64,000 nt of DNA from Saksenaea vasiformis B4078. Taxonomy: Eukaryota; Mucoromycota; Mucoromycetes; Mucorales; Saksenaeaceae. The notes beneath the pieces are model-generated. The model did no database searches. It was not told the DNA's origin and saw only the letters and a program-made list of their open reading frames with translations. The position numbers and the translations under genes were made by a program. Below, piece by piece: positions 21,323-54,527 of the stretch. Every line of letters starts with the position of its first letter. Position 1 is the first letter of the stretch. Where the stretch lies: NCBI GenBank assembly GCA_000697055.1, contig JNDT01002248.1:1-64000 (forward strand), in the 5' to 3' direction.

Positions 21323-23430
21323 TTAATCATGTTGGCCAATTCTGCGATGCGACTTATATTTTCTCGAAGAGAACTTCTCAACCTCTGCGGTTGCACCGTG
21401 AACATCCATTCGGTTGCTGTATGCTTCGATATAGCGCCAGCACCTATTGTAGTAATGGCGTATTTTTGTAATGTCGCCGGCCAAGTCCAAAAACGAGTCA
21501 AGATTTTCTTGCAGCGCCTTATAACTGTAGCTGCAGTTTCTACGTGCTTCACGCTTGGCCGCACCCCAATATCTTTCAATCCAATTGCATTCGCAATGGA
21601 ACTTGGGGTACAGCTCAAATACGTGTCCAGCACGTTCTACCTCCTCACATAGTGCTGTTTTTTGGCTTGCGAAGTCAGGTTGAGCAGCCAGCAAGTGGCG
21701 GGCACAGCACCTATAGTCTTCTTTCTGGTCTTCTCCACAGTCTAACCTCCACTTTTTCCCTTTGCGATAGGGATCTTCTTCAGTCCACAGTTGACGCTCC
21801 ATCAATACGGTCTTGATACCCTTGCTGTACTTGACTTCTTTGACAATTCTTTTGCCCTTTTTCGTTATCGTCGCCTTGGTATCTCTGATGTACATGCATT
21901 GTGAGTACGTCTGGCCATTTAGCACAAACTCCGTATGATGCATAGCACACTGATCAGGTTCAGATATGACTCTGTCCTTTAGAGCCATCTACTAGCAAGC
22001 AACGCATCTTTCTTGTAGGCGTTATGGTTGCTACTCTGGTCGAACAAGAACACTGCCTTGCAACCGGGATGCAGCAACTCAAAGAGGGGAATTGCATCCT
22101 TTAGGAGTTGTTCAAGCATGTGTTCGCTTGTCCACCAGCTATCGCGATTTGTGCCCGCGTAAAACTTGCGTCGTGATGTCCAAGCACCGCTTCTCATTGT
22201 TCCATGGCAAGCGCACTGGAACTCGCTTATCATAATGGACATCCCTGGGCTTTTCTTGCGGATCGGATTTTCACCCTCTTGGAGCCACATCGTTTGCTTT
22301 CCGTCATTTGCGTAAAAGGTAGACTCATCGTGTGTTACCAAAACATGCTTCATCTCACCAGCAGTTAATGTTGGCTCTACAACGATATCCGCATTTTCGC
22401 CTTCGTAACTCTCCATCAAGCGCTTATATGTCATCATCCGCGTAGCCCACTCTTCACGATACGCAGCCACATCTGACCGTTCATGTCCATCAACGAAAAC
22501 ATCCTTCTTATTACTACGGAAGCTATAGCCCCATTCGTGCATGTATTTCCAGAGAGTGCTAATAGCAATGCTTCCAGGGACGCCGAGTTTCTGTGGAAGC
22601 AGTTCCTGGTTGACATGCTTCTGTAGTTCCACCAGGCTGCGCTTCTCGGGCTTCTGCTCTCGGATCCAGTTGCAAGCAGCGAGCTTGAAATCCTCATCAT
22701 TCAACAATGAAGGCCGCTTAGAATGCTTTCCCTGTTGATGAGGAGAGAGCGTTCCGAATTGAAGGTATTCTTTCGCCCACAAACGAATGGCAAGGTTACG
22801 ATAGGTTGACGGAGTCTTCCAGATAGCGTTTGCAGCTTTTTGCGAAGATTTGATCTTCTTATATCCTTCCAGTCTGTAGTGAAAGTAATGGCGCACAGCT
22901 TGAAGTTTGCAGAGGTCGAAGCACGATCTGCTGTTGAAAGGAACCACAGCACTGATGCGAGGAAAAATTTCTGTGCAAATTTTATCATATGCAACTTCAA
23001 TCTCTTCTATCTCGCTCTTCTCTTTAGCCTCCAAATATTCATCGTCACTATCAGACTGCTCATGCATGATATCAGATTGTTGCTGAACTTCAGGAACAAA
23101 CCCAAATTCAGTCAACTTGCGAGACTTTGTCTCAGACTTTTCTCTGTGCTCCTCTGCTTTACGCTTTCTCCATGTCGTAGTTCTGGAATCTGTTCGGTAA
23201 ATACCACGAAGTTTACTATCTGCACCGCTTTTCCAAGTAAGCGGTTGCTGTACACACGCTGTAACCAGCATTTCTTCACTGAGACCCAACAACTCCCAAT
23301 CTTCGACATCTACTTCTTGATCTCGATGCAAGTTTACTTGCTCACTTTCATCTTCATTTAAGGCTTGTTCTAACTTTTGTCTATGGTATCTTTCTTTTGC
23401 TGCTCTTTTTTGGGCGCGAGGTCGAGGCAT
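21323..23430 (-). pseudogene. Long DDE transposase, frameshifted
   Basis: Two overlapping minus-strand frames (23430-21979 and 21988-21323) together give about 700 residues. The N terminus is basic and then acidic. The middle carries a possible HTH (KLGVPGSIAISTLWKYMHEWG), then the first catalytic region VLVTHDESTFYAND. The second acidic site follows in VFLFDQSSNHNAY. After the frame break come CCARHLLAAQPDF and FHCECNWIERYWGAAKR, where the third acidic residue is expected. This long DDE family, with the NWIE-type block, is common in Agaricomycetes and Mucoromycota. Near 21988 the frame shifts exactly between LLASR and MALKD, consistent with loss of one base. A sequencing error is also possible. 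Confidence 0.75.
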
Positions 23431-23735
23431 CTTGGTAAAACTAATGAAAAAAAGCAGTAAACAGGCAATATAACACCAGGGGTAATAACCGATATTATTG
23501 GCTAATAATTGTATCCCCGCATCATTGGAACTCCGTTCTGAAAAATGGCTGTCTCAATTTTTTTCATCCCTGCTAAAATCGTCGCTGAGACCCCAACTTC
23601 GAAAGCCTGAGGAAATTTATTTTCCAAACCAAATCGAATTATATTTGAATTTCCTTATTCTTTGAGGTTTCCTCTATCAGAAACATCAAATTTCATCACC
23701 AATGTTTACTCTAAAATTCCTTAGGCGTTAGAACT

Positions 23736-23962: not shown

Positions 23963-24930
23963 TTATGACCTTTCTTTGTTGAGAAATTTACCAAAACATT
24001 TAGAAGAATGAGAAACAAAGCCTTTAAAATCACTTAGATATAAACTATTGCATGCCTCACTAATTCTAGGCATTAGTGATTCTTTTTCCAGAAACTTATT
24101 TCGCTTAACTTTACTTTTGACAACTGACCAGAACTGCTCAATTGGATTCAGTTCAGGAGAATACGGAAGAAGATATACATATCGATATTCTCGAGGGTGA
24201 ATACACTTTCCTATATCAGTGGAACTATAGATAGGAGCATTATCCATAACAAGGTAATGTCCCTTCATATATGGATACTTGTCCATTTCATCAAGGGTAG
24301 CCTTCACAAAGTTCAGGTAATGACCTGTAACAGTACCAGTGCTATAACCATCAGTCTCAACTCTGAGTGTCCTTTTCTTTATACGCTTAGGGACTCTCAC
24401 AATGACGTTAATCAAACCAGAGGCAGAAACGGCACCTACAATAGGAGTTGCTCTAACTTTAGCGGTAGGCACTGTACCTATAGCAGATGTGCCGTTCTTT
24501 GACCAAGCCATACTTCGTTTCAAATTAATATGAAAGGCTGATTCGTCTAAAAAGATACAGTTTGTTGTAAAGTCCAAGTCAGTTTTCTGCCACCGTTTGA
24601 CCCAATCGTACCTTAGTTGAATTTTTTCCTCACGGATACTTTCCACAGGATGGAATTGTGCTTGCTTAATGGATAGATTACACTGAGTCGTCATGAAGTT
24701 ATAAACAATACTACGAGAAGCTTAAAGCTCAATGGATTTTTGTGTTAAATTTTATACTACAGTAGTTTTCTCTGTCATCAGAGTAAAACGTATAGCGTCG
24801 TTTATTGCATAACTCCATATCAGCATCTTCACTCTTCCTTTCATCTTTTTTGGATGGAAAGATCTTTGAACGACATCACTTATTAAAACTGCGACTTTAC
24901 TTTTTGGAATGACTGTATTCTAACCAAAAA
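23963..24930 (-). pseudogene. Tc1/mariner-like transposase relic with internal deletion
   Basis: The part from 24694 to 23963 is an open DDE domain: starts MTTQCNLSIKQAQFHPVE, then NCIFLDESAFH (first Asp), LVMDNAPIYSS (second Asp), and LLPYSPELNPIEQFWSVVKS (third acidic, DDE type). The stop follows KFLNKERS. Upstream at 24930-24780 the helix-turn-helix start (DADMELCNKRRYTFYSDD) is present, but the roughly 90 residues that normally link it to the DDE domain are missing, and stop codons lie between. Hence a deleted, non-autonomous copy. It ends within 40 bp of the kinesin stop codon. Confidence 0.78.
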
Positions 24931-38388: not shown

Positions 38389-39979
38389 CTAGTGCGCCTT
38401 CTTCTTGGATTTGGTCTCGGATTTGGCCTCTCGGCTACCCCATGTGCATAACCAAACGGCGCTGAAAGTTATAAAGCCTACAATCATACTTGCCACAGAA
38501 GCATAATAGGGATAGGCCGCAGTCAAGTAGCGAGGGTATTCGTTATGTCTGTATGGGCGGATGGCAATGGTATCTTCGACAGAAAGATACGTAAGTCCCG
38601 TCCTCTTGTAGTTGACGCGGAAGGTGAACACGCCGTAGACATCAGGCAATCGTAACTGAGTCTCGAAACGACCACCAGCAGAAGATGCTTGCTTCAGGGT
38701 TGTACGGATGTAAGGATCCAGCATAATGATTTCGAGTTGGATGTCATTTGCTTTGAAAGGAACCCAAGCGTCATTCTTGTACTCAGAAATATCAAGTTCA
38801 TATACCTATCAACGGTTAGAGTGGTCGTCCAAATAGCATTTGCACTTACAATATCGTCCTTCACCCGGTAAGCTTCGGGCTGCTCTGTTTCGTTCTGCTT
38901 AGAGTGATGATGATGATCCACTCTAAGGACGCTCTTTTCCTGGAAGGTCCACTTTGTCAATTCGGTGATAAATTCTTCATTGCCAGATTTCTCGAAGCTG
39001 TTCAACAAACCATTAGCTGTTTAATCAGAAGGGCGAGATACAAACACTTACGCTTTGATAGAACCGTCAGCGAGTTTCTGTTCAGCAGGTGCATCAAAAG
39101 ATCTTTACACATGTTAGAAAAATAACATCCATGTATATAAAAGACATACTTGTCCGAGAAAATATCCAAGGAACCCACAAATGTTGCGCGAGCTGAGTTT
39201 CGGGCTTGCATGGCGGCCACGAGATCGACAGGCTCATTCACCTTTTGATTCTCGTTGTATCGATTAGCGCTGAAAGCAGTGGATTCTGATGTCAAGACAT
39301 TGGCGGATAGGGGCAATGAGCCTACTGAGAGTCCAATGCCATTGTAGACAACTGGCGCTGTGACACCATCAACAATGGAAGGGTTTGTCGTCTTGGATGT
39401 AGTAATGACACGGTGCTCACTATCCGTAGATTGATGATCAAATACTTTGCTACCACGAGGATCAAATTCGACATCGAACTCGCCGGCCAAATCGCGAACA
39501 GTGCTGCTGGGATCGTTTCCGGATGCCACTAAAAGGTTGCCTCCCTTATTAACGAATTTTACAAGATTCACGTTGGAAAGAGCTTGATGCTTTGCCAAGT
39601 CTAACATAGACAGAATTTAGTTGGTTCTTGCGCCAAAAAATCAGTATAAACTCACTGTTGGCTTTGGGTGCGAAATGAATAATATGGTCGTAGCGTGCTC
39701 TGCCAAAATATTCAAGCACGGTCGATTCATCGTTGGCATCCTTGAAATCAAGAGCAAATTCTCTTTCTAGTCCATTGTAAGTACATCCAGACTTTTAGAA
39801 AGTTAACTATGGAACATACCCTGCAATGTGTTCCAGAAACGAGAGTACGAGTCTTTGTCTGCGATGTTGTCCAGAAGTACAAGAACACGATCACCACTAA
39901 CGGATTTGGCTTCTGTAGCAGAAAGTGAAATCAAAAGGGACGAGATGACAACCGTCACCAACGAAGTGATGCCTCTCAT
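38389..39979 (-). CDS. WBP1: Oligosaccharyltransferase subunit Wbp1/OST48
   Basis: ER-membrane subunit of the complex that N-glycosylates nascent proteins. ATG at 39979-39977, stop 38391-38389, about six exons. The N terminus is a signal peptide (LVTVVISSLLISLSAT) followed by RVLVLLDNIADKDSYSRFW. Next come the luminal GIFT-like region with YDHIIHFAPKA, FVNKGGNLLVASG and EFDVEFDPRGS, then the beta-rich segment DVYGVFTFRVNYKRTGLTYL. One C-terminal transmembrane helix (YYASVASMIVGFITFSAVWL) is followed by the cytosolic KSKKKAH, a dilysine-type ER retention tail. Length and order match the family. Confidence 0.94.
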
Positions 39980-40099: not shown

Positions 40100-41190
40100 C
40101 AGTATTCTTATAAATATGATATATTCTAGTGGTAGTAGTAGTCTTTTTTTTATTCTTCATCTTTTTGTACTTCCAGAAAAAGTGAGTCTTATAACATAGC
40201 AACTGTAGAAGATCGAAGATCACTAAACCCGTGCTTCGACTTAAAGACGATGCTTTTTCTTTATTTACTTTTGACTGTTTTTTATCATCATCTTTGAGTG
40301 GAAAGGCGTGCGTTTGGATGCAGCTCCTCTCTTTCCCATTTCTCCTCCATATCTTCGAATTGTTTTTTGATTGCCATGATCTTCTCTTTGGAATAGGTGT
40401 TGCAGGCTTTAAACTTTCTAAAAAATTTTGCATCTTTTGCTCCAGCTTTCTTTTTTCCTCTGCTACATCTACTTCTGCCTCTATCGAATGTGCATTCGCG
40501 GTCGGTTCATTTGTATCGTAAGGCAATACTGCATCAGTGATGAGATACGTATGCTAGCAGCAAGATGTATATGACTTTTACCTTGCAGAACGTTTAGTGT
40601 AGGATTGACACGCTTCAGTAAGGACATGTGTTTACATGCTAAGCGGCGCCAGCTAAAATCTCTACAAGTGCAGGAAATCATGGTGCAATCTTGCACTTCG
40701 ATGTGGTGGACGATGCCTTCCTGCGAAAACGATCGAACCGTATGCTCAGATACCATTTCTCCTAGAACTGCATCTGGTATCTGAAGAGCAGCGATCTCTC
40801 GTTTTCTTCTCTCTTTCTGCAGGACCCATTCTTCCAATGTTCAATGTTACACGCGTCGTATTCATTTTGAAATCAAATTCGACGTCGTGTGTCAAGATGT
40901 AGATCAAGCGATCTACTCGTCTGTTACGCTTGCGCTTGAGGTACGTTGACTTGAGTTGGTTGTGCCAGCTTTCCACGTACTTGTTGGTTTCCAAGTTGGT
41001 AAACACCTGCGGTTGGAAAGCTGCGCACCAGTTCTTCATCTTGTTGTTAGCTAGCCATTGCTCGTCAAAATATTGCAGGAAAGATGTGTGTTGCTTATTA
41101 TCTGCAATAAACTTTGTCTCCTTTTCCTCGGCACGCGAAGGATCCCTTTCCCACATTAGCGACTTCAAGGGAGTAATAATTTGTGGGTGC
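40100..41190 (-). pseudogene. C-terminal half of a MULE-type transposase with SWIM zinc finger, frameshifted
   Basis: Minus-strand frames encode FLQYFDEQWLANNKMKNWCA, NKYVESWHNQLKSTYLKRKR and RRVDRLIYILTHDVE, then after a frame change EERRKRE-like LQKERRKREIAALQ and the SWIM finger SCTCRDFSWRRLACKHMSLL (C-x-C...C-x-H). An intron (about 40528-40581) joins a coiled-coil end. The DDE catalytic domain that should precede this is absent, so the copy is 5'-truncated near 41190. The frame change is caused by a perfect tandem duplication CAATGTT at 40835-40848; removing one unit restores VTLEEWVLQ. Its 3' limit is unclear. Confidence 0.7.
40835..40848. repeat. 7-bp tandem duplication CAATGTT x2
   Basis: Two adjacent copies of CAATGTT inside the MULE coding region shift the reading frame. 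The size suits a transposon excision footprint or replication slippage. Confidence 0.75.
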
Positions 41191-42172
41191 GCATTTTTAT
41201 TTTCCGGCTACAGCGCCAACCTTCGCTCATTTGCGGATATGTTTCATCCATGCACGAGCCACATAAAACAAATACAATGAGGGTGATGGTGTTTGGGAAG
41301 GCGATAGAGATGACTGTGTACTTGGCGATGCTTGCAATCAATCATCATCTTGTGAACGATTCAAGGTCGTAGTGATCCCTCAGGAACGTCAGCCGTTGCA
41401 TCAAGGGTTGTGTCTGTCGTATTCCGACATCCTTTTCAGTCATTGTCAGAGACATTACCATCCAATAATTGGTAACTGCCGTAAATGATTCTGATTTCTA
41501 CCGCGGGATTAGTTTGAGCACAGACTGTGTTGCTTGCTCGTTTCTTTATCTTTCAATCCTACTGATCCTTCATCCATAAATGAACTTCTGTTTTTTCTTG
41601 CACTCTTTTTTTCGTGAATATTCTTCAAAATACGGAGGACTGATGCATGTTTTGAGTGATTAGGTACTTCCTAAGTAGTTGCGCAGCAAAGCTATCTTAT
41701 TTTGAATCCCAAATAAAGTGAGTGACATAAGAGTGCGTCAAAAGCAGCACCTGCAAAAAGTCTAGACACTCACAGTGAAAGAAAAGGAGGGATACACTGT
41801 TGTTTGTGTATGGTCTGAACATTATCTCGTGCCTTTTCAAAGCAAGTAACTCTCAGGGAGCTCGCATCCAATGTTCTTGCTGCCATTTGAATGAACTATG
41901 TCCGTGCTGGTTACGTCCACCTCCTTGATCCCGCGTATGCTGCCTCTTCATGCGGCAGTAAAACAAAGAACAAGTTGCGCACATGTGGCTAGTTTATCTG
42001 CGAAACAGGATCATGACCTGATATTGAGCATTGTTAGAAGAACAAAGAAACGTCATGATTAATTTTGAATGACAACAATGAAAACACATAATGACCACAT
42101 TCCAAAACAGCTTTTTACTTCTCTATCCGCTTTTTACTTCTCCACCCTTCTATCCACTTTTTACTTATTTTT
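41191..42172. other. Spacer upstream of the Fanzor gene
   Basis: No conserved ORF. A T/C-rich tract (about 42105-42170) with repeated CTTTTTACTT units precedes the Fanzor start codon and may be its leader. Confidence 0.4.
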
Positions 42173-45100
42173 ATGGAACCTATTGTCGAGAAAGAAGAAG
42201 AAGGAGTAGGACCACCCGCACAACGGCAGAGGCAACGCTACAGGCACTCGATTTTGCCACGGGATCGAGGACGCTTTCAGCGGGTTACAAGAAAAATAAA
42301 AGTATCGAATTTTCTCAGGCCACAGTTTGGCCATCTAAGGGTGAGTAAACTACGACACATCTATTGCTTACTCATATATTTCGTGTAGCAACGTTTCCGG
42401 CGTATCGCCGAGCAGTATTACGTCCTTCGACGTGACGCTTTGAACCTGGCAAACCTACACGTCCGTCGCTGGGCGGAAGAGGGACACGTCCACGGAAACT
42501 TCACATTTCCACCAATTGCTACTCGAGAATTTTGGAGAGCGGCATTCAGATTTGTTCAGTACAGGCCCTTACACATCAACACCACCCAAACTGTAAGTGT
42601 GTACATGCAGGGAGGTGGTCAAGTATTCATGTCTTTATTTTGTAGCCATCGTGGGAACGAAGACTTTGGACTACGGCGATTGATCACTTCGAGCCGTTGC
42701 GAAAGGACGAACATGGTGGGTGTAAGTTAGCATTGATCGATTGAAAATGCATGATATTAATCTCGACATAATAGATCTGTACGCTATCGAAAAGATCGAG
42801 GGATTTTTCATCGAGATGCCTGATCCATTTGCAATCAATGCAATACAAAGTATAAGATAGTCTTCCAGTGATTATATATCTAACATGCCCATAGATGTTC
42901 GCAGGCACCTCGTGAATAATGTATCGACATATTTGCGATTTGTATGGTTGGCCTATTTTCGCGCTTTGAAAGAGCGCCATCAAGGCTTCTTGCCTGGGGG
43001 AGGACCCGCGGCTCATGGTACGAAACAAGTTCGAATAAATCTCACTAACAATGGTTCTTCTAGCTCGATTCGCCGTTACTCGTATCACAAATCATGAACC
43101 ACTAGAGGACCATCACTGGCAAGATATGCCTTTCAGAGGCGAACTGCTGACTTTTTTTGAGTAAATACCTTGTGATTAATTTCATTGTTAATCATACCAA
43201 CTGTCACAGGACCCAATACAATCTGTACCAGACTCACCTCGGTGATATCCTGATTGACGAGGTCGATCCAGAAGATGAAGGGACCCATCCACTTTTTCCA
43301 AGGATTGTGAAATACACAGTTCAATATGACGGTAGCCGTTGGTCTATCCTGCCTATAGCAACACATCAAATCGGTTACTTCCCGATTACGGGGAGGGGTC
43401 TATGGAAAATCCTACGTGATACCTTCCTTGCGAATGAGGCAGTTCCTCCACTGTTTGTGGTAAGTGAGCGTATCCTGGTTTTAAGTCGTCATGTACATTA
43501 AATGCTCTGATTCTAGCGTGAGAATCCAAGACGGAGACAACTACGGTATTGCAGTCTCAAAGAATTTGACGCTCTTGTTCGAGATCCCGTCTGGCGAGAA
43601 ATTTTTTGGGAACAACTGTTTAACATCGATAAGTGTCAGAAAAATCGCTGGCGGTGGAATAATGAACGTAGGTTGCTGTGTTTCCGAACTGCTGCTAATT
43701 AATTTATATTCTAGCTGTCGTTAATGCTGAACGTACTGCTCTTGAATTTGCTTACTATTTTGAAACGGATGGTGTAGGCGCATCTGTGGTATTCGAGTGT
43801 CGCAAACACGGTAGGAGGAAAATGGCATGCTTCTTCCTGTCCTCATACTTTGTTAAGAACATTTTCCCTCCTCCCAAAGGGATTTTCGGCTCCTACCCCG
43901 GAACATGGACCTTGGCTCATGGACGAAGGGTATTTATCATCTTAACAAGGAACCGATAGGTCTGGCACAGGAGCGTCTCGCGGAGTCAAGGATCGTCGGC
44001 CTTGACCCGGGAATACGATCGTTGTTCAGCGCGGTGGACACCAATGAGCCGTTAGTGACTCGTGAGCTGCGCAATGCCCACACAGCCACAATCAGCAACA
44101 ATGAATATCAGTAAGTCCACTTTGCCATATGATGATCGATGATCGTTAACAGGTCTTTTAAGACTCCGATCCATGTTCTCGTGGGCCAAGCAAACGGAAT
44201 TAAAATCACGTCGGGATGCATCCATGCAACAATATTACGACGAAATTGCGGAGAACCCGCCTACAGTCGCTACCACGGTGGAGTTCAGAAGATATATACA
44301 AACACTCGGTCGTATACATCGACCGTAGGTAGAGCATTTATCTGAGGATATTCGACTATACTAAAGTGATTACTAGCATGTACGACTTTAACTGTGCTTA
44401 TCGCCATCGCGAAAATCGGATGCTCTTGTACTCTGCACGACGTAGTACGTTAAATGTACTGGCTGACAGGGTATCTACGGGTTCGCCCCGAGACGTAAGT
44501 GACAACATCTCTAATTATAGATCTAATGTCTATGTTTCGGATAGGATTTGATCCAGCCGCATTATAAATCTACAAGATCAAAAAGGAAGCGCCGGCGGCG
44601 GCGGTTAAGAGAAAATATTCAACAGCAGCAGTAGCCGACCATCGTCGCATATGGTGATGCGGATTTGAAGCCTACAATGAGGGGTCTCGGTCCGTTACCA
44701 GTGAAGGTATATGTTACATACTTTCCATTCAGATAATGCTAACTTAAAAACACATGCTAGCAATTCCGGAAAATACTCGCGCAGAAGTGCCTTGTTATAC
44801 TAATAGACGAATATAACACTTCAAAAGTGTGCTCCAGCTGTGATAATGACACGCAGCAGTTTGTGACGCCCATTTCACGGTGTCAGCACAAGTAAGTCAC
44901 TGGTTTTTGCAAGCTCATACCAATTAACATTGTGGAATCCTTAGAACGAAAATGCTCCGTCGTCCGGGCGGCGATCGTCGCAAAAGATACTGTTTGAACG
45001 AAGAAAATGTCATATTGCAAAGGACTTCGCAATGCCCTGAGTTGCAACCATTACGTGAGGATCAGATCATACCGAAAGCAAGTTTCATTAACAGCATTCA

Positions 45101-45624
45101 TGATAGCTTTGAACGATTTCCGCTGCCAGGTCTATCCGATTAAGTTGTGCAACCAACATCAGTTGGGAGGCGCTGGCATGGAACATGGAGAACAAAGGCC
45201 ACTGGTATGTAATTCCTGTGTGAAAGTACGAAGCTAAGGTTTTCTTTAGTTTTGGAATCGCGACGTCAATGCGGGTAGAAACATGCGGCGGATTCTGGTA
45301 GCATACATGGAAGGTGACATGCAATTGCAGACAGGCCCGCTGCATTACGTCGTCCACAACAGCAACAGCAACAGCAACAGCAACAACAACAAGAACAATA
45401 ACCTGCACCCCTTGGTGGTGCTAGGCCGTAAGGAACGGCCAACTAGCCTCTCGTTAGGAACTGGGAGAGCTTCGTAAGTACCATTTCAAATGTTTATGAC
45501 GACGTTCTTATTTTCTTTGTGACTTAGGGCTCTTCCAATAAGCATGATTTACTGGCGCTCCGTGAAATTCGATGCCCGACACAGAATGTGCGGCTCCAAT
45601 GTGGACGCACAGGGTTGGCTCTAA
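42173..45624 (+). CDS. Fanzor (eukaryotic TnpB-like RuvC nuclease), with one in-frame stop
   Basis: About 18 exons spliced by eye in one frame, giving roughly 840 residues. Start ATG 42173 (MEPIVEKEEE), stop 45622-45624. The N-terminal half is basic (RQRQRYRHS, RRWAEEGHVHG) and then alpha-helical (WPI-type WERRLWTTAIDHFEPLR). The split RuvC domain carries three acidic motifs: GLDPGIRSLFSA (Asp 44004-44006), ILIDEYNTSKVCSSC (Glu 44809-44811, running into a CxxC zinc pair) and FWNRDVNAGRN (Asp 45262-45264). A VAYGDADL strand and a YGD-type turn precede RuvC-II as in Fanzor/TnpB. Family knowledge: Fanzors are eukaryotic RNA-guided DNA endonucleases related to TnpB. The frame contains a TAG at 44632-44634, after three CAG codons, between RuvC-I and RuvC-II; no intron that removes it keeps frame. 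So either a recent nonsense mutation or an error. The C-terminal part has a Ser/Asn repeat and an ERPTSLSLGTGRA block. Confidence 0.85.
45357..45395 (+). repeat. AACAGC/AAC microsatellite within the Fanzor gene
   Basis: Five AACAGC-type units followed by AAC repeats code for a Ser/Asn tract just after RuvC-III. A hypervariable linker is the simplest reading. Confidence 0.7.
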
Positions 45625-45948: not shown

Positions 45949-47249
45949 ATGGTCCGCAGCCTCGTTACCATGTCAGCACAACACGAAGCACTTGCGTCTA
46001 TTCTTGATAATGACCTTTACAAATTTACTATGCAGCATGCAGTATTAAAGCAATACAAAGATACGCAAGTGGTTTGTCAATTTACGAATCGCGAGAAGGA
46101 ACTGCATCTGAATGCAACGGCCGTCGAATGGCTATTGAAGCAAATCAAAGGTATGCCAAGGAGGATATTTGTCTTTTATCAATGGCTCATATATGACTTG
46201 AAGCTATGGAGAACCTTTCTCTGACGCCAGAAGAACGCGACTATGTATCTCAATTCAAGTTCTTTGATGATGCTTATGTCAGCTACCTGTCAAACTTCCG
46301 GTATCGTCCTTCAGAGCAGGTCAAGACCCGTTTTGATCCAGTTACAGAAGATTTTGAGCTTGAGGTGTCTGGTCTATGGCATGAAGTGATTTTGTATGAG
46401 GTTCCATTGCTTGCTCTTATTTCTGAAGCCTATTTCCGGTTCGTTGATCGCGACTGGAACTATAATGGTCAGGCTGAACAAGCGGAGAAGAAAGCAGCCA
46501 AGTTGTTAGATCATGGCTGCGTATTCTCTGAGTTCGGTACGCGACGCAGACGTGATTTCAAGACACATGACATCGTGATGGGCGCAATCCATGCCGCATC
46601 TCAATCGTACAAGGCCCGAAACGGTAATAAGGGTGTTCTCATGGGTACAAGCAACGTCTATCTTGCGATGAAGTATGGCGTCAATGCAATTGGCACTGTA
46701 GCACACGAATTCTTTATGGGCGTGTCGGCATTGGAAGGAATCAAACACGCAAACCGCGTGACCCTCCAAAAGTGGCACGAAATCTACAAAGGCGATTTGG
46801 GAATTGCTTTGACTGATACTTTCACGACACCCGTGTTCCTCGAGGACTTTGATCGAGAGCTTGCAGATGTTTATACAGGTGTACGACAAGATTCCGGAAG
46901 CCCAGAGGAGTTCGTGTCCTTGATGGTAGAACACTACAAATCGTTGGGCATTGACCCCAAGACAAAGGTTATTGTGTTTTCTGATGCTCTGGATGTTCCG
47001 CGTGCCATTCATTTGCTGGATGTTGCTGAAAAGGCCGGAATCAAGGCCAGCTTTGGTATTGGAACTTCGTTCACCAACGATTTTGTCAAGCTCAGCTCCG
47101 GTGCAAAGAGCAAGCCGCTCAACATTGTTATTAAAATGAAGGAGTGTGATGGCAAACGCGTGATCAAGTTGAGCGACGACGTGTTGAAGTACAGTGCCGA
47201 TATGGAGACTATCAACCGGTTTAAGAAGGAGCTGGGCATCTCAGCATAA
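45949..47249 (+). CDS. NPT1: Nicotinate phosphoribosyltransferase
   Basis: Converts nicotinate and PRPP to nicotinate mononucleotide in the Preiss-Handler NAD salvage route. Two exons, 45949-46150 and 46204-47249, with a 53-nt intron, about 415 residues. Motifs: ILDNDLYKFTMQHAVL at the N terminus, EVPLLALISEAYFR, FSEFGTRRRRDFKTHD, GTSNVYLAMKYG, GTVAHEFFMG (the His used in the catalytic cycle), TDTFTT, VYTGVRQDSGSPEEF and ASFGIGTSFTNDF. An in-frame second ATG at 45970 (MSAQHEAL) is an alternative start; the first was kept. All hallmark residues are present. Confidence 0.95.
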
Positions 47250-50323: not shown

Positions 50324-53300
50324 ATGTCACTGTCTCTAGCAAGACAAGCAGCACATGCTCGAAGCGGCTCCCGGACACTTCTCGTTCGATCGTCACCCCA
50401 CACTCATTCCTCCCTGCGATCGACAACCTTACTTCATAACCGTAGTACTGCATTATCCAAGGTCCTTGCAACGTCTTGTCCACGCTACAGTACCGCCGCC
50501 CCAGCGGCCGCTTCAGAAGAGCCAGCTCAGCCAAACCATGTTATCCTACCTAATCCCGCCCTTCAGCAGTTCAGGCGTACTGCACGTATCCTTCCATCAA
50601 CTATAGCTGAGCAATTCGCAATCCTGAACGCATGTATCAGTGGTGGAAGTATGGAACGAGCAGAACGCATTATGCACGAATTGTACAAAACAAAACATGA
50701 AGAGATGAAGGTCTTTGTGGACGTGCAGATGTACAACTCGTTTTTGAACGGCTTTATCGAAAATCCTACTCCCATGACACAGCAATGTCTCGCTTGGTTC
50801 GATTCTATGAAAAATTACGGCTTGATTCCAGATGTTCACACATACGCCATCATTGTCAAAGGATTTTTAAAGTAAGCGAAACACAGGAGAAATCAGAATT
50901 GGTGATTGATTGCGTTTTGTAGAATGAAAAGTTACTACACTGCCCGTGCCCTGCTTCAAGAAATGCAAGCCGAGGGCAATATGTCTGTCGAAGAAATGAT
51001 CAATTCACATTTTCTCTCAGAGAAGGATATTGGGATGTTTCGAAATGTATGTATATCGTGAAAAGAGAATGGTGTCAGTTCTAACCTCTTTTGTACTTTT
51101 CCAGCTTATCTCCGAGAACCAAGATAGCTCCTCGGAGGCGGTTCAGACTCTCTTGCAGGATCTTGAGCGTGTGACGGATGACGTTTTGGGCAAACCGGCG
51201 ACACCTATCCGCCGGGAAAAGAAGACGATCGATGTTCCTATTGAAGAAGTGCCAGAGGCAATCCCCACGAAATCTATCGGTGTCAAATTTTTGCAGGAAC
51301 AGCTGACATCTCTGCGTGACCCAAAAAGAGCTCTTCAGGTGGATCCATACGAGTTACAGAGAGAGTTGGAACATCAGGGTTATGAAGTTGCAATGCAAAG
51401 ACTTCTTTATGACCGTGAAGCAAGCATGGAACGTGGTGACACATTGAACGCAATGAACCTTACACCATTGAAGAAGACAATGTGGGACTGGCATGAAAAG
51501 ATGATTCCTTTGCTAAGAGAAGAAATCGCTCGATGCGATGCAATGACCCGTGAAACGGAACGAACCAGCTATGCACCCTTCTTAAGACTCCTACCCCCCG
51601 AAAAACTGGCCATCATTACCATCCTCGAACTCCTTCGGTTGCATAACTCTTCAGGCATTGCAGACGGTATGAAGACAGCTCGCGCTGTGATCGATGTTGG
51701 CAAGGCTGTGGAGATGGAATATAACGCTACGCAGATGAAGAAATCGTCGAACAAGTTACTGGCACGAAATCAAGAAGTGCATACATTGTTTGCGAACGGC
51801 AAGCTTTTCAACATGGCTGTGAGAAAGGCGCATATGAAGATGGCACGCGAGCAGGAGAGTATGCGGGACCTAGTTGAATCGTCTGAAGGTGATACCGGTG
51901 CTGGTGTTGGTTCAGGCCAGTGGACACCTGTATGGCCAAGCACCATCCGTGCGAAAGTTGGAAGTGTGTTGACGAGTATCTTGATTGATGCGGCCAAAAT
52001 CCCGGTACCAAGCAGAAATCCTGAAACGGGTGAAAAGATGTAAGTATATGAGTTGGATGTGGCCAGAAACTCATTTTTCTCGTGGATAGCATCGAGAATA
52101 TTCCTGCTTTCTTCCACACATATCAATATGTTCGAGGCAAGCGCGTCGGTATTGTCAAGTTCTCGGAACCGCTGACGGATCTTCTTTCGCGTGAACCGGT
52201 TCGCGATACGCTTCATCCTCGCATGTTGCCTATGATTGTTCATCCTCGCCCATGGCTGTCTTACAATTCTGGAGGTTATTTGACTGCGAAATCCACATGC
52301 ATGCGTATCAAAGATTCGCCAGAACAGCTGATCTACTTGCACAAAGCTTCCGAACAGGATCGTTTCACTGGTGTCCTCGCAGGTCTTGATGTGTTGGGAT
52401 CAACCCGCTGGAGAGTAAACAAGGATGTTTTCAAGGTTGTCCTTGAAGCGTGGAATACTGGTGAGCCTATTGCAGATATCCCACCGGCCATCAACGAACC
52501 GACACCTTTGCCTCCAAAGCCCGAAGATTACGATAGCAATCCAAAGTCTAAATTCCAATGGGTGAGCAGAGTGAAAGAGATCCAGACCCAAGACAAGAAC
52601 TACCACAGTTTGCGATGTGACGTCAACTACAAGGTCGAAACGGCTCGCGCAGTAAGTAACAGAACAGAGAAGGAAAAAGTCTGACATAGATGCTGACATT
52701 GTAATCTCTAGTTCTTGAATATTCCAATGTATTTCCCTCACAACATGGATTTCCGTGGTCGTGCTTACCCTATTCCTCCTACTTTGAACCATTTGGGTAA
52801 CGATTTGTGTCGTGGTCTTCTTCACTTTGACGAAGCAAAGCCTTTGGGTGAACGAGGATGGCGATGGCTCAAAATCCATTTGGCCAATTTGTACGGTTAC
52901 GATAAGTAAGTGGAGCATGCACCTACGTGAGAGGTAGAGTTATTCACTTCCTTCTAGACACTCCTTCACTGAGAGAGAAAACTTTACATTGGAGAATATG
53001 GAGAATATTCTGGATTCTGTCAGGAATCCTCTTGGGGTAGGGATAAAACATGAAATAGTTGTGAGTGCCTTACTTACGGGAGCACTATAGGGTAAGAAAT
53101 GGTGGTTACAAGCAGAATCGCCATGGCAATGTCTTGCAGCTTGTTACGAAGTAGCCGCTGCTCATGCAAGTGGCAAACCTCAAGACTTTTTGTCGCATCT
53201 TCCTATTCATCAGGACGGTACATGTAACGGTCTGCAGCATTATGCTGCCTTGGGTGGTGATTTGGCTGGTGCTCGAGCTGTCAATCTTGCCCCGAGTGAC

Positions 53301-54527
53301 AAGCCTGCGGACGTCTACACGGGTGTAGCCGACATGGTGAACAAGCAAATTGATGCCGAGGCGGCAGCAGGAGATGAGCATGCACAACTTTTGCAAGGCA
53401 AAGTTAGCCGTAAAGTGGTGAAGCAGACTGTCATGACCAACGTATATGGTGTCACTTTCATCGGTGCTCGTGCACAAATCGAGAACCGATTGAAGGAGCG
53501 TGGTGATATTCCTCCCGAGAAGATCTATGTTCTTGCAGGCTATCTGGCCAAAAAGGTGTTCTCTTCACTGGGAGAGATGTTTAATGGTGCACGACAGATT
53601 CAGGACTGGCTGACAGATTCAGCAAGGCGCATTGCCCGAAGTGTTCCTTTGGAAGCACTACAAGCCGCTGGCGTGATTGAATCCGATCCAGATACCGAAC
53701 TTGTACAGCTGGCGGACGAGCCAGTCAATAAACGAGGCAAGCCAAAGAAAAAAAACAACAAAGGTTTCTCAGCACGAAGTCCTACGGCAAACCAGATGTC
53801 TTCCGTGATTTGGACAACACCTCTTGGGTTACCAATTGTACAGCCATACCGTCGTTCGGGTAAAAAGCAAGTATCGACCTTATTACAAACCGTTTTCATC
53901 GAAGATCCCGATGCATCTCGCCCTGTCAATGCACTGAAACAGAGTACTGCATTCCCACCCAACTTCATTCACTCGCTTGACGCCACTCATATGTTGATGT
54001 CTGCCGTCGCTTGTCACGAAAAAGGCATGACGTTTGCCTCTGTGCACGACAGTTACTGGACTCACGCTTGTGATGTGGATGAAATGAACAAGGTGATCCG
54101 TGATCAGTTTATCGAACTCCATTCCCAACCTATCATGGAGAACCTGCGCAGCGAGTTTATGGAACGATACAAGGACTACAGAGTGCCAGTGTCACAGGAA
54201 ATGGAATCAAAACGAAAGAGTAAAGCCAAGGCGACGGGCGTTGAAGAAACGGCAAGCCTTGGTTTTGCAGACCTTGGCGACGATGTAGATGTCTCAAAAT
54301 CAAAACAACCACGAAGCGAAGATCAGGCTGCGATGGACGCATTGTTTGGTCTTGCTGACGAAGAAGCAGCAGAGGATGAAGCAGCAGAAGAAGAAGCACC
54401 AGCAAAGAAGAAGACCAACTCACGCAAATATGTTCATACATGGGAAGAACTTACTTTCTTACCACTGCCACCTAAAGGAGAGTTCGATATCAACATTGTG
54501 AAGGAATCTGATTATTTCTTCCACTAA
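50324..54527 (+). CDS. RPO41: Mitochondrial DNA-directed RNA polymerase
   Basis: Single-subunit T7-like polymerase that transcribes mitochondrial DNA. About seven exons; the first introns are near 50873-50922, 51047-51104 and 52041-52089. The N terminus is Arg/Ser-rich (presequence). A pentatricopeptide-like section ([29 protein letters not shown]) precedes the N-terminal polymerase domain. Catalytic motifs: [33 protein letters not shown] (motif A Asp), [17 protein letters not shown] (motif B Lys and Tyr), [12 protein letters not shown], and [11 protein letters not shown] (motif C Asp). A Lys-rich insert ([12 protein letters not shown]) and an acidic Ala/Glu stretch near the C terminus are lineage-specific additions. 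The end KESDYFFH is conserved. All catalytic residues are intact. Confidence 0.95.

Follow-up and report, generated by a model that had tools for sequence, protein, structure and literature searches.

Transposons of the MuDR type that carry Fanzor genes were described in the Mucorales in 2013 by Bao and Jurka (PMC3627910), who give the motif order of Fanzor1 proteins as D ... [TS][TS]xx-zinc finger ... RD. Three of their elements, ROr-4, PBl-3, and MCi-4, belong to the same fungal order as the genome studied here and combine Fanzor1, MuDR-like termini, and 9-bp duplications with no functional transposase; they are described as lacking a MuDR transposase (PMC3627910). MCi-2 of Mucor circinelloides joins a constant 3' part that holds the Fanzor gene to variable 5' parts, with 11-12 bp duplications, a partial Crypton in subfamily 2A, and, as described there, no recognised terminal repeats (PMC3627910). 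The RNA of a Mucorales Fanzor is already known (PpFz1 of Parasitella parasitica, 75 nt; PMC11423790, PMC10432273), the guide RNA of GtFz1 overlaps 17 codons of its open reading frame (PMC10432273), and D383, E541, and D606 are given as the acids of SpuFz1 (PMC11423790). The reason for the association of Fanzors with so many different transposon families has been called an open question (PMC10711439).

We analysed 64,000 nucleotides of the Saksenaea vasiformis B4078 genome (the window) and think it highly probable that its Fanzor locus is a copy, now damaged, of a non-autonomous MULE/MuDR-type transposon with an intron-rich Fanzor1 gene and a candidate guide-RNA scaffold lying over its stop codon. 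Whereas ROr-4, PBl-3, and MCi-4 are reported without a MuDR transposase, the Saksenaea element retains a decayed C-terminal transposase fragment and has a 3' RNA candidate, which, like the guide RNA of GtFz1, overlaps the end of the reading frame. The Saksenaea family resembles MCi-2 in its constant 3' part with Fanzor and its variable 5' parts; unlike MCi-2, it has MULE left ends and short terminal repeats. New relative to these systems are the RNA candidate of this Fanzor lineage and a left-end module common to Fanzor lineages whose introns are saturated. Among the papers listed in a literature survey, judged by titles and abstract beginnings, none dealt with fungal Fanzor introns or with an RNA of this lineage.

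Results

A Fanzor1 gene of 17 exons. The features of the locus are collected in Table 1. A splice-consistent reading of the gene starts at the ATG at 42173 and uses introns of 45-57 nt, all 16 of them GT..AG. The order of RuvC motifs given by the sequence-only reading stands, with GLDPGI in exon 10, LIDEYNTSK plus CSSC in exon 14, and NRDVNAGRN in exon 17. Its count of about 18 exons gives way to 17, as the supposed exon 18 (45528-45624) lies almost wholly beyond the right end of the repeated element at 45536 and the frame of exon 17 has already stopped, at 45475-45477 in the window copy, before reaching it; the stop of the family is the TAA at 45429-45431. The earlier reading also passed over a stop codon, the in-frame TAG at 44632-44634. 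A 140-nt intron (44495-44634) that would hide this codon was ruled out, because the segment is coding in relatives and 11 of 11 other copies have a sense codon there. The superseded model, which skipped the start of exon 13 and included the false exon 18, served as the query in the PF07282, PDB, genome-wide, and homologue searches.

Table 1. Features of the Fanzor1 element of S. vasiformis, in window coordinates
Feature	Position	Strand	Remark
Repeated element	40231..45536	.	about 5.3 kb left in window; left terminus not recognisable
Decayed C-terminal part of MULE transposase	40481..41419 (about)	-	frameshifted; about the first 270 residues missing
Position homologous to right limit of shared left-end module	40898..40898	.	
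Fanzor1 gene, window copy	42173..45477	+	17 exons, 16 introns
Fanzor1 exons 1-6	42173-42340, 42389-42592, 42646-42721, 42775-42849, 42895-43017, 43064-43160	+	
Fanzor1 exons 7-12	43210-43459, 43517-43667, 43715-43810, 43858-44110, 44163-44324, 44377-44494	+	
Fanzor1 exons 13-17	44545-44706, 44761-44891, 44945-45054, 45107-45204, 45250-45477	+	
Private 21-nt in-frame deletion	43312..43313	+	20-21 nt more in 14/14 other copies covering the site
RuvC-I Asp codon (GLDPG)	44004..44006	+	aligned to IDPN of SpuFz1
Private in-frame TAG, exon 13	44632..44634	+	stop there in 0/11 other copies covering the site
RuvC-II Glu codon (LIDEYNTS)	44809..44811	+	aligned to LDEYKTS of SpuFz1
RuvC-III Asp codon (NRDVNA)	45262..45264	+	aligned to NRDM of SpuFz1
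Neighbourhood of private 1-nt deletion	45332..45333	+	one base more in 11/11 other copies covering the site
Candidate guide-RNA scaffold core	45404..45471	+	hairpins H1, H2, H3
H1	45405-45409/45417-45421	+	
H2	45424-45429/45435-45440	+	overlapped by family stop TAA 45429-45431
H3	45446-45449/45456-45459	+	one pair lost in window copy
Remaining 3' end up to right terminus (...CTTTGTGACTTAGGGCTCTTCC)	45472..45536	+	
Right terminal repeat core CCTAAGTCACAAAG	45515..45528	-	
Right flank, predicted guide/target region of window copy	45537..45556	+	inferred from published Fanzor/TnpB scheme

Relationship to Fanzor1. By itself, the window protein scores 22.4 bits against Pfam PF07282, under the cut-off of 26.3, and in the PDB it reaches only PpFz1 at E = 4, behind four SAC3 chains (0.25-0.56) that are apparently chance matches. 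With residues 400-770 as the query, seven proteins matched among 3249 candidates; the best two are from Mucorales (Fennellomyces, 1.6e-49; Cunninghamella echinulata, 3.5e-42), and the other five comprise two from Trebouxia, one from Lipomyces, and two listed without an organism. A profile of these seven homologues, with the window protein left out, placed three Fanzor1 chains first in the PDB (PpFz1, 4.9e-21; SpuFz1, 2e-19; GtFz1, 4.6e-19), followed by LaTranC at 0.0022 and then TnpB and Cas12f chains, with 17 chains at E <=1. The homologue matches and the profile ranking uphold the earlier assignment to the TnpB/Fanzor group, as a relative of Fanzor1, and from its sequence we regard this intron-rich gene as a real relative of Fanzor, the eukaryotic RNA-guided DNA-cutting enzyme. 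Two additional protein searches returned one match among 4906 candidates, which was the query's own member, and four matches among 1639 candidates, the query included.

The published Fanzor1 motif order is found in the C-terminal half of the window protein, and its three RuvC motifs align to the SpuFz1 motifs that should carry D383, E541, and D606. By profile, the window Fanzor is like PpFz1, SpuFz1, and GtFz1 in RuvC motif order and zinc-ribbon region; its direct similarity to them is low, and it differs from them in some 80 residues with Cys and His between the zinc knuckles. These residues (44840-45204) have conserved Cys/His positions in common with two diverged loci of the same genome, L059 and L060, and with Cunninghamella protein P0002, and may form an additional zinc-binding module. 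In the window copy, the second zinc knuckle is CxxH-like rather than CxxC. An AlphaFold model of P0002 built from seven sequences had a mean pLDDT of 39.4, too poor for use.

Dispersed copies. In the 38.7-Mb genome (666 contigs), exon-level matches numbered at least 145 for the Fanzor protein (54 of 726 candidates scored) and at least 137 for PF07282 (150 of 388 candidates scored), both being counts of exon matches rather than of genes. A 155-base piece of the right end occurs at 38 places, 20 of which belong to the window family at 93-100% identity, window included; diverged relatives of the family are present as well. At the DNA level, all 20 fetched loci align with the window over 0.9-5.3 kb, with many cut short by contig ends, and their Fanzor halves are 91-97% identical to the window in DNA, except for one 91-base piece at 87%.

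The window element lies between an OST48 gene (39005-39616, minus strand) and a nicotinate phosphoribosyltransferase gene (46197-47246, plus strand). Elsewhere in the window, an open frame with a DDE_3 domain (23966-24721, minus strand; PF13358, 71 bits) probably encodes a Tc1/mariner-type transposase, and the long frames near it at 21326-21988 and 21982-23553 (minus strand) had no Pfam match at E <=0.01. A single-subunit DNA-dependent RNA polymerase, presumably the mitochondrial one, is encoded at 53091-54524 (plus strand; PF00940, 576 bits).

A candidate guide RNA over the stop codon. A pattern of 21 bases taken from the element's 3' end occurs at 48 sites with <=3 mismatches; the reversed control has one. 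Between the window family and a second Fanzor lineage of the genome, identity reaches 29 of the first 35 nucleotides past the stop and 27 of the first 30, the remainder to the terminus is 49% identical, and the introns are saturated (48% identity versus 46% when shuffled). An RNA model built from 14 sequences, R1, matches 32 of 32 chosen sources (14 of them by construction) and a single place in the 64-kb window at E <=1. Over 24 distinct rows, 97.1% of the cells of H2 and H3 are paired, against 15.8-40% in slid controls, a count made on related rows in an alignment fitted to the model and leaving H1 out; at the H3 pair that it has lost, the window copy is the sole unpaired row of the 24. Cells changed on both sides number 11, against 4.7 in shuffles, and 0 of 500 shuffles reached that count. 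Such cells fall in only 2 of the 10 pairs, no more than in shuffles (347 of 500). The family stop codon lies inside H2 in both lineages, and in a further lineage (L073-L076) a TAA appears, on our reading, to sit in the loop too. We found no R1 match in nine other loci (L060 and L001-L008), and the RNA candidate is thus not common to all Fanzors of the genome. Rfam gave no match at E <=1 between 42000 and 45800.

The sequence of this hairpin block, conserved and overlapping the family stop, makes it a candidate guide-RNA scaffold. The alternative, in which the block is nothing more than a transposon end or protein-coding sequence, seems to us rather unlikely. In its favour, the block lies next to the right terminus, its H1 and part of its H2 are coding, few pairs covary, and fold energy is ordinary in the window family: energies as low came from 220 of 500 shuffles for the full length (z = -0.12) and from 66 of 500 for the core (z = -1.22). 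In the second lineage, 11 of 500 shuffles were as low for the full length and 46 of 500 for the core. Neither a terminus nor a coding end readily accounts for conservation that runs about 30 nt past the stop codon when introns are saturated and the stretch from there to the terminus reaches only 49% identity, or for six H2 pairs that are each preserved in 23 of the 24 distinct rows, in two instances through changes on both sides.

Element ends and target sites. Twelve right ends, including that of the window, align up to ...GGGCTCTTCC (45536) and pass into unrelated flanks. The right end of the family is TTTGTGACTTAGGGCCCTTCC, the left end of sister copies is CGATTTACTTATGTCACAAAC, and the terminal repeats are short and imperfect. 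The earlier remark that no terminal inverted repeats are obvious needs qualifying: a short one exists at the right end, TTTGTGACTTAGGG, with its partner CTTATGTCACAAA at the left ends of sister copies, and the remark does hold on the left of the window copy, where searches found neither a left terminus nor a target-site duplication. Within the window, matches to the terminal motif occur at chance level. An internal likeness of it (CTTATGTCACTCAC, two mismatches) lies at 41718-41731 on the minus strand, between the transposase fragment and the Fanzor gene.

Thirteen left flanks were compared, 10 from the window family and 3 from the second lineage. For eight of the 13, all in sister copies, a stretch of 9-14 nt recurs in one of 33 right flanks; with random 16-mers drawn from the window, the mean was 0.5 and the maximum 7 of 13 over 300 draws. 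We read these as target-site duplications of about 9 bp in sister copies. Seven of the eight pairs span different contigs, the only match within a contig being in C538, and of six insertions tested with both ends in one contig, those in C272, C233, C606, C525, and C456 had mismatched flanks; in C272 the left flank, and in C606 the right flank, has its partner in another contig. Because flank partners lie in different contigs, several contigs are probably chimeric or recombined.

Directly before a duplication starting with AA, G or C followed by CC is found in six of seven duplication-paired insertions of the family (the exception is L051), and the single second-lineage pair has CCC before GACCGGGAA. 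This G/C-C-C could be a TAM imprint or a transposase preference, and we treat it as a TAM-like lead only. The left-terminal motif GATTTACT recurs 9-10 nt past the right end in the window (45546-45553) and in L039, both with type B left ends (see below); with right flanks scanned to 30 nt at <=1 mismatch, it follows the right end in 2 of 33, versus a background of 0.8%. It may be a footprint or a nested insertion.

Left ends shared between lineages. The left part is of type A in 10 of 20 loci and of type B in L039, L046, L048, and the window; the other seven loci do not show it. In synonymous divergence, the left fragments of the 10 type A copies differ from those of the window, L039, and L048 by a dS of 0.76-1.16 in 29 of 30 pairs (window-L051, 0.59), with L046 intermediate (0.21-0.43 to type A, 0.54-0.60 to type B), and the Fanzor halves differ by 0.02-0.20 in the 45 pairs tested. 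Elements of the second lineage have their left 649-682 bp in common with type A copies at 89-97% identity in 3 of 3 contigs examined (C525, C456, and C537), and the shared module stops at the same base in all three even as the introns of the two Fanzor lineages are saturated.

Recombination between elements is the simplest account of the shared module, and template-switching repair after Fanzor breaks would be a guess at how the exchange came about. A fragmented, repeat-rich assembly could in principle have produced both the module and the mismatched flanks by error, since the genome is in 666 contigs, many copies stop at contig ends, and left and right flanks of single insertions fall in different contigs. 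We consider this unlikely, given that the join to the module falls at an identical base in three contigs of the other lineage and that dS between type A left fragments and those of the window, L039, and L048 is 0.76-1.16 in nearly all pairs.

The transposase fragment. The transposase part left in the window contains a finger (CTC...CKH) that we take to be SWIM-like, and its open reading frame had no Pfam match above chance. A relative elsewhere in the genome, the 473-residue open frame of L083, matches PF10551 (MULE) at 32.9 bits (cut-off 27.6) and PF00872 at 25.8 (cut-off 21). The window fragment aligns to this frame from about residue 270 onward and so covers only the C-terminal part. Its omega is 0.11-0.27 (window versus 13 copies); these low values may date from functional sources and for that reason offer no contrast to Fanzor.

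Introns, selection, and lesions. Intron positions are the same across dispersed copies, and the copies retain their introns. All 16 intron sites recur within two alignment columns in L059 (55% protein identity) and 15 of 16 in L060 (45%), each relative having one extra intron after GLDPG/GVDPG; the four frame jumps in the L059 alignment may reflect misalignment or lesions. L060 (C565:169500-174500, minus strand) has 17 introns and no stop or frameshift in its spliced alignment, and it lacks the RNA candidate. We dropped the idea that L060 is domesticated, as it has relatives in C580, C500, and C577. That introns occupy identical sites in dispersed copies with 91-97% DNA identity across the Fanzor half indicates that the family multiplied by transposition at the DNA level, and sites common to relatives of 55% and 45% identity indicate that intron density reflects the age of the Fanzor lineage, not domestication. 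The sequence-only reading had taken dense introns as a sign of long residence in the host, which finds no support here, and it had left undecided whether the nuclease belongs to a mobile element or to the host, a question these data answer in favour of the mobile element.

Selection was estimated by the Nei-Gojobori method from codons up to 45326 in the 45 pairs formed by 10 of the 21 sequences. Omega ranged from 0.16 to 0.77, the high values coming from pairs with few synonymous changes, and from 0.17 to 0.29 for the window versus the nine others. Over all sequences, shared codons with a single change were 33 nonsynonymous, 75 synonymous, and 1 stop (pN/pS 0.13), versus 153 nonsynonymous, 81 synonymous, and 5 stops for private ones (pN/pS 0.56). 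The Fanzor protein was under purifying selection, and the difference between shared and private changes suggests that it was maintained while elements spread, with copies decaying later.

The window copy is damaged, one copy among many on a mobile element. Downstream of 45332-45333 its frame departs from that of the family, whose other copies end at the family TAA. All seven copies that span the gene, the window copy included, carry at least one lesion. Any one lesion could possibly be a sequencing error, and because the assembly may be chimeric, lesions should not be tied to single insertions. That the window holds a single domesticated Fanzor gene of long residence is very improbable, for although its dense introns sit at sites conserved in relatives and its protein was under purifying selection, copies are many and dispersed, sister copies have duplications, and the private stop and frameshift of the window copy contradict domestication of that copy itself.

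Discussion

Dispersed copies that retain introns, duplications flanking sister copies, and a decayed transposase fragment lead us to read the Saksenaea element as a MULE/MuDR-type transposon. By our proposed mechanism, a MULE transposase acting in trans would move the element. The 3' RNA of an intact sibling, ending in flanking DNA that serves as the guide, would direct Fanzor to the empty site, and repair from the filled copy after Fanzor had acted there would keep or spread the element.

A more speculative extension, which we think improbable as it stands, is that the right half (Fanzor gene, guide RNA, and right terminus) is a stable mobile unit that has repeatedly acquired MULE left ends, perhaps through template-switching copy repair of Fanzor breaks, with G/C-C-C as a TAM imprint. 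If this were true, the nuclease would let one lineage hop between transposon hosts.

For Fanzor, intron density is no sign of domestication. A single genome here contains diverged lineages of Fanzor, left ends shared between them, a candidate RNA, and the traces of selection on the protein, which makes the association between Fanzors and transposons testable within one organism.
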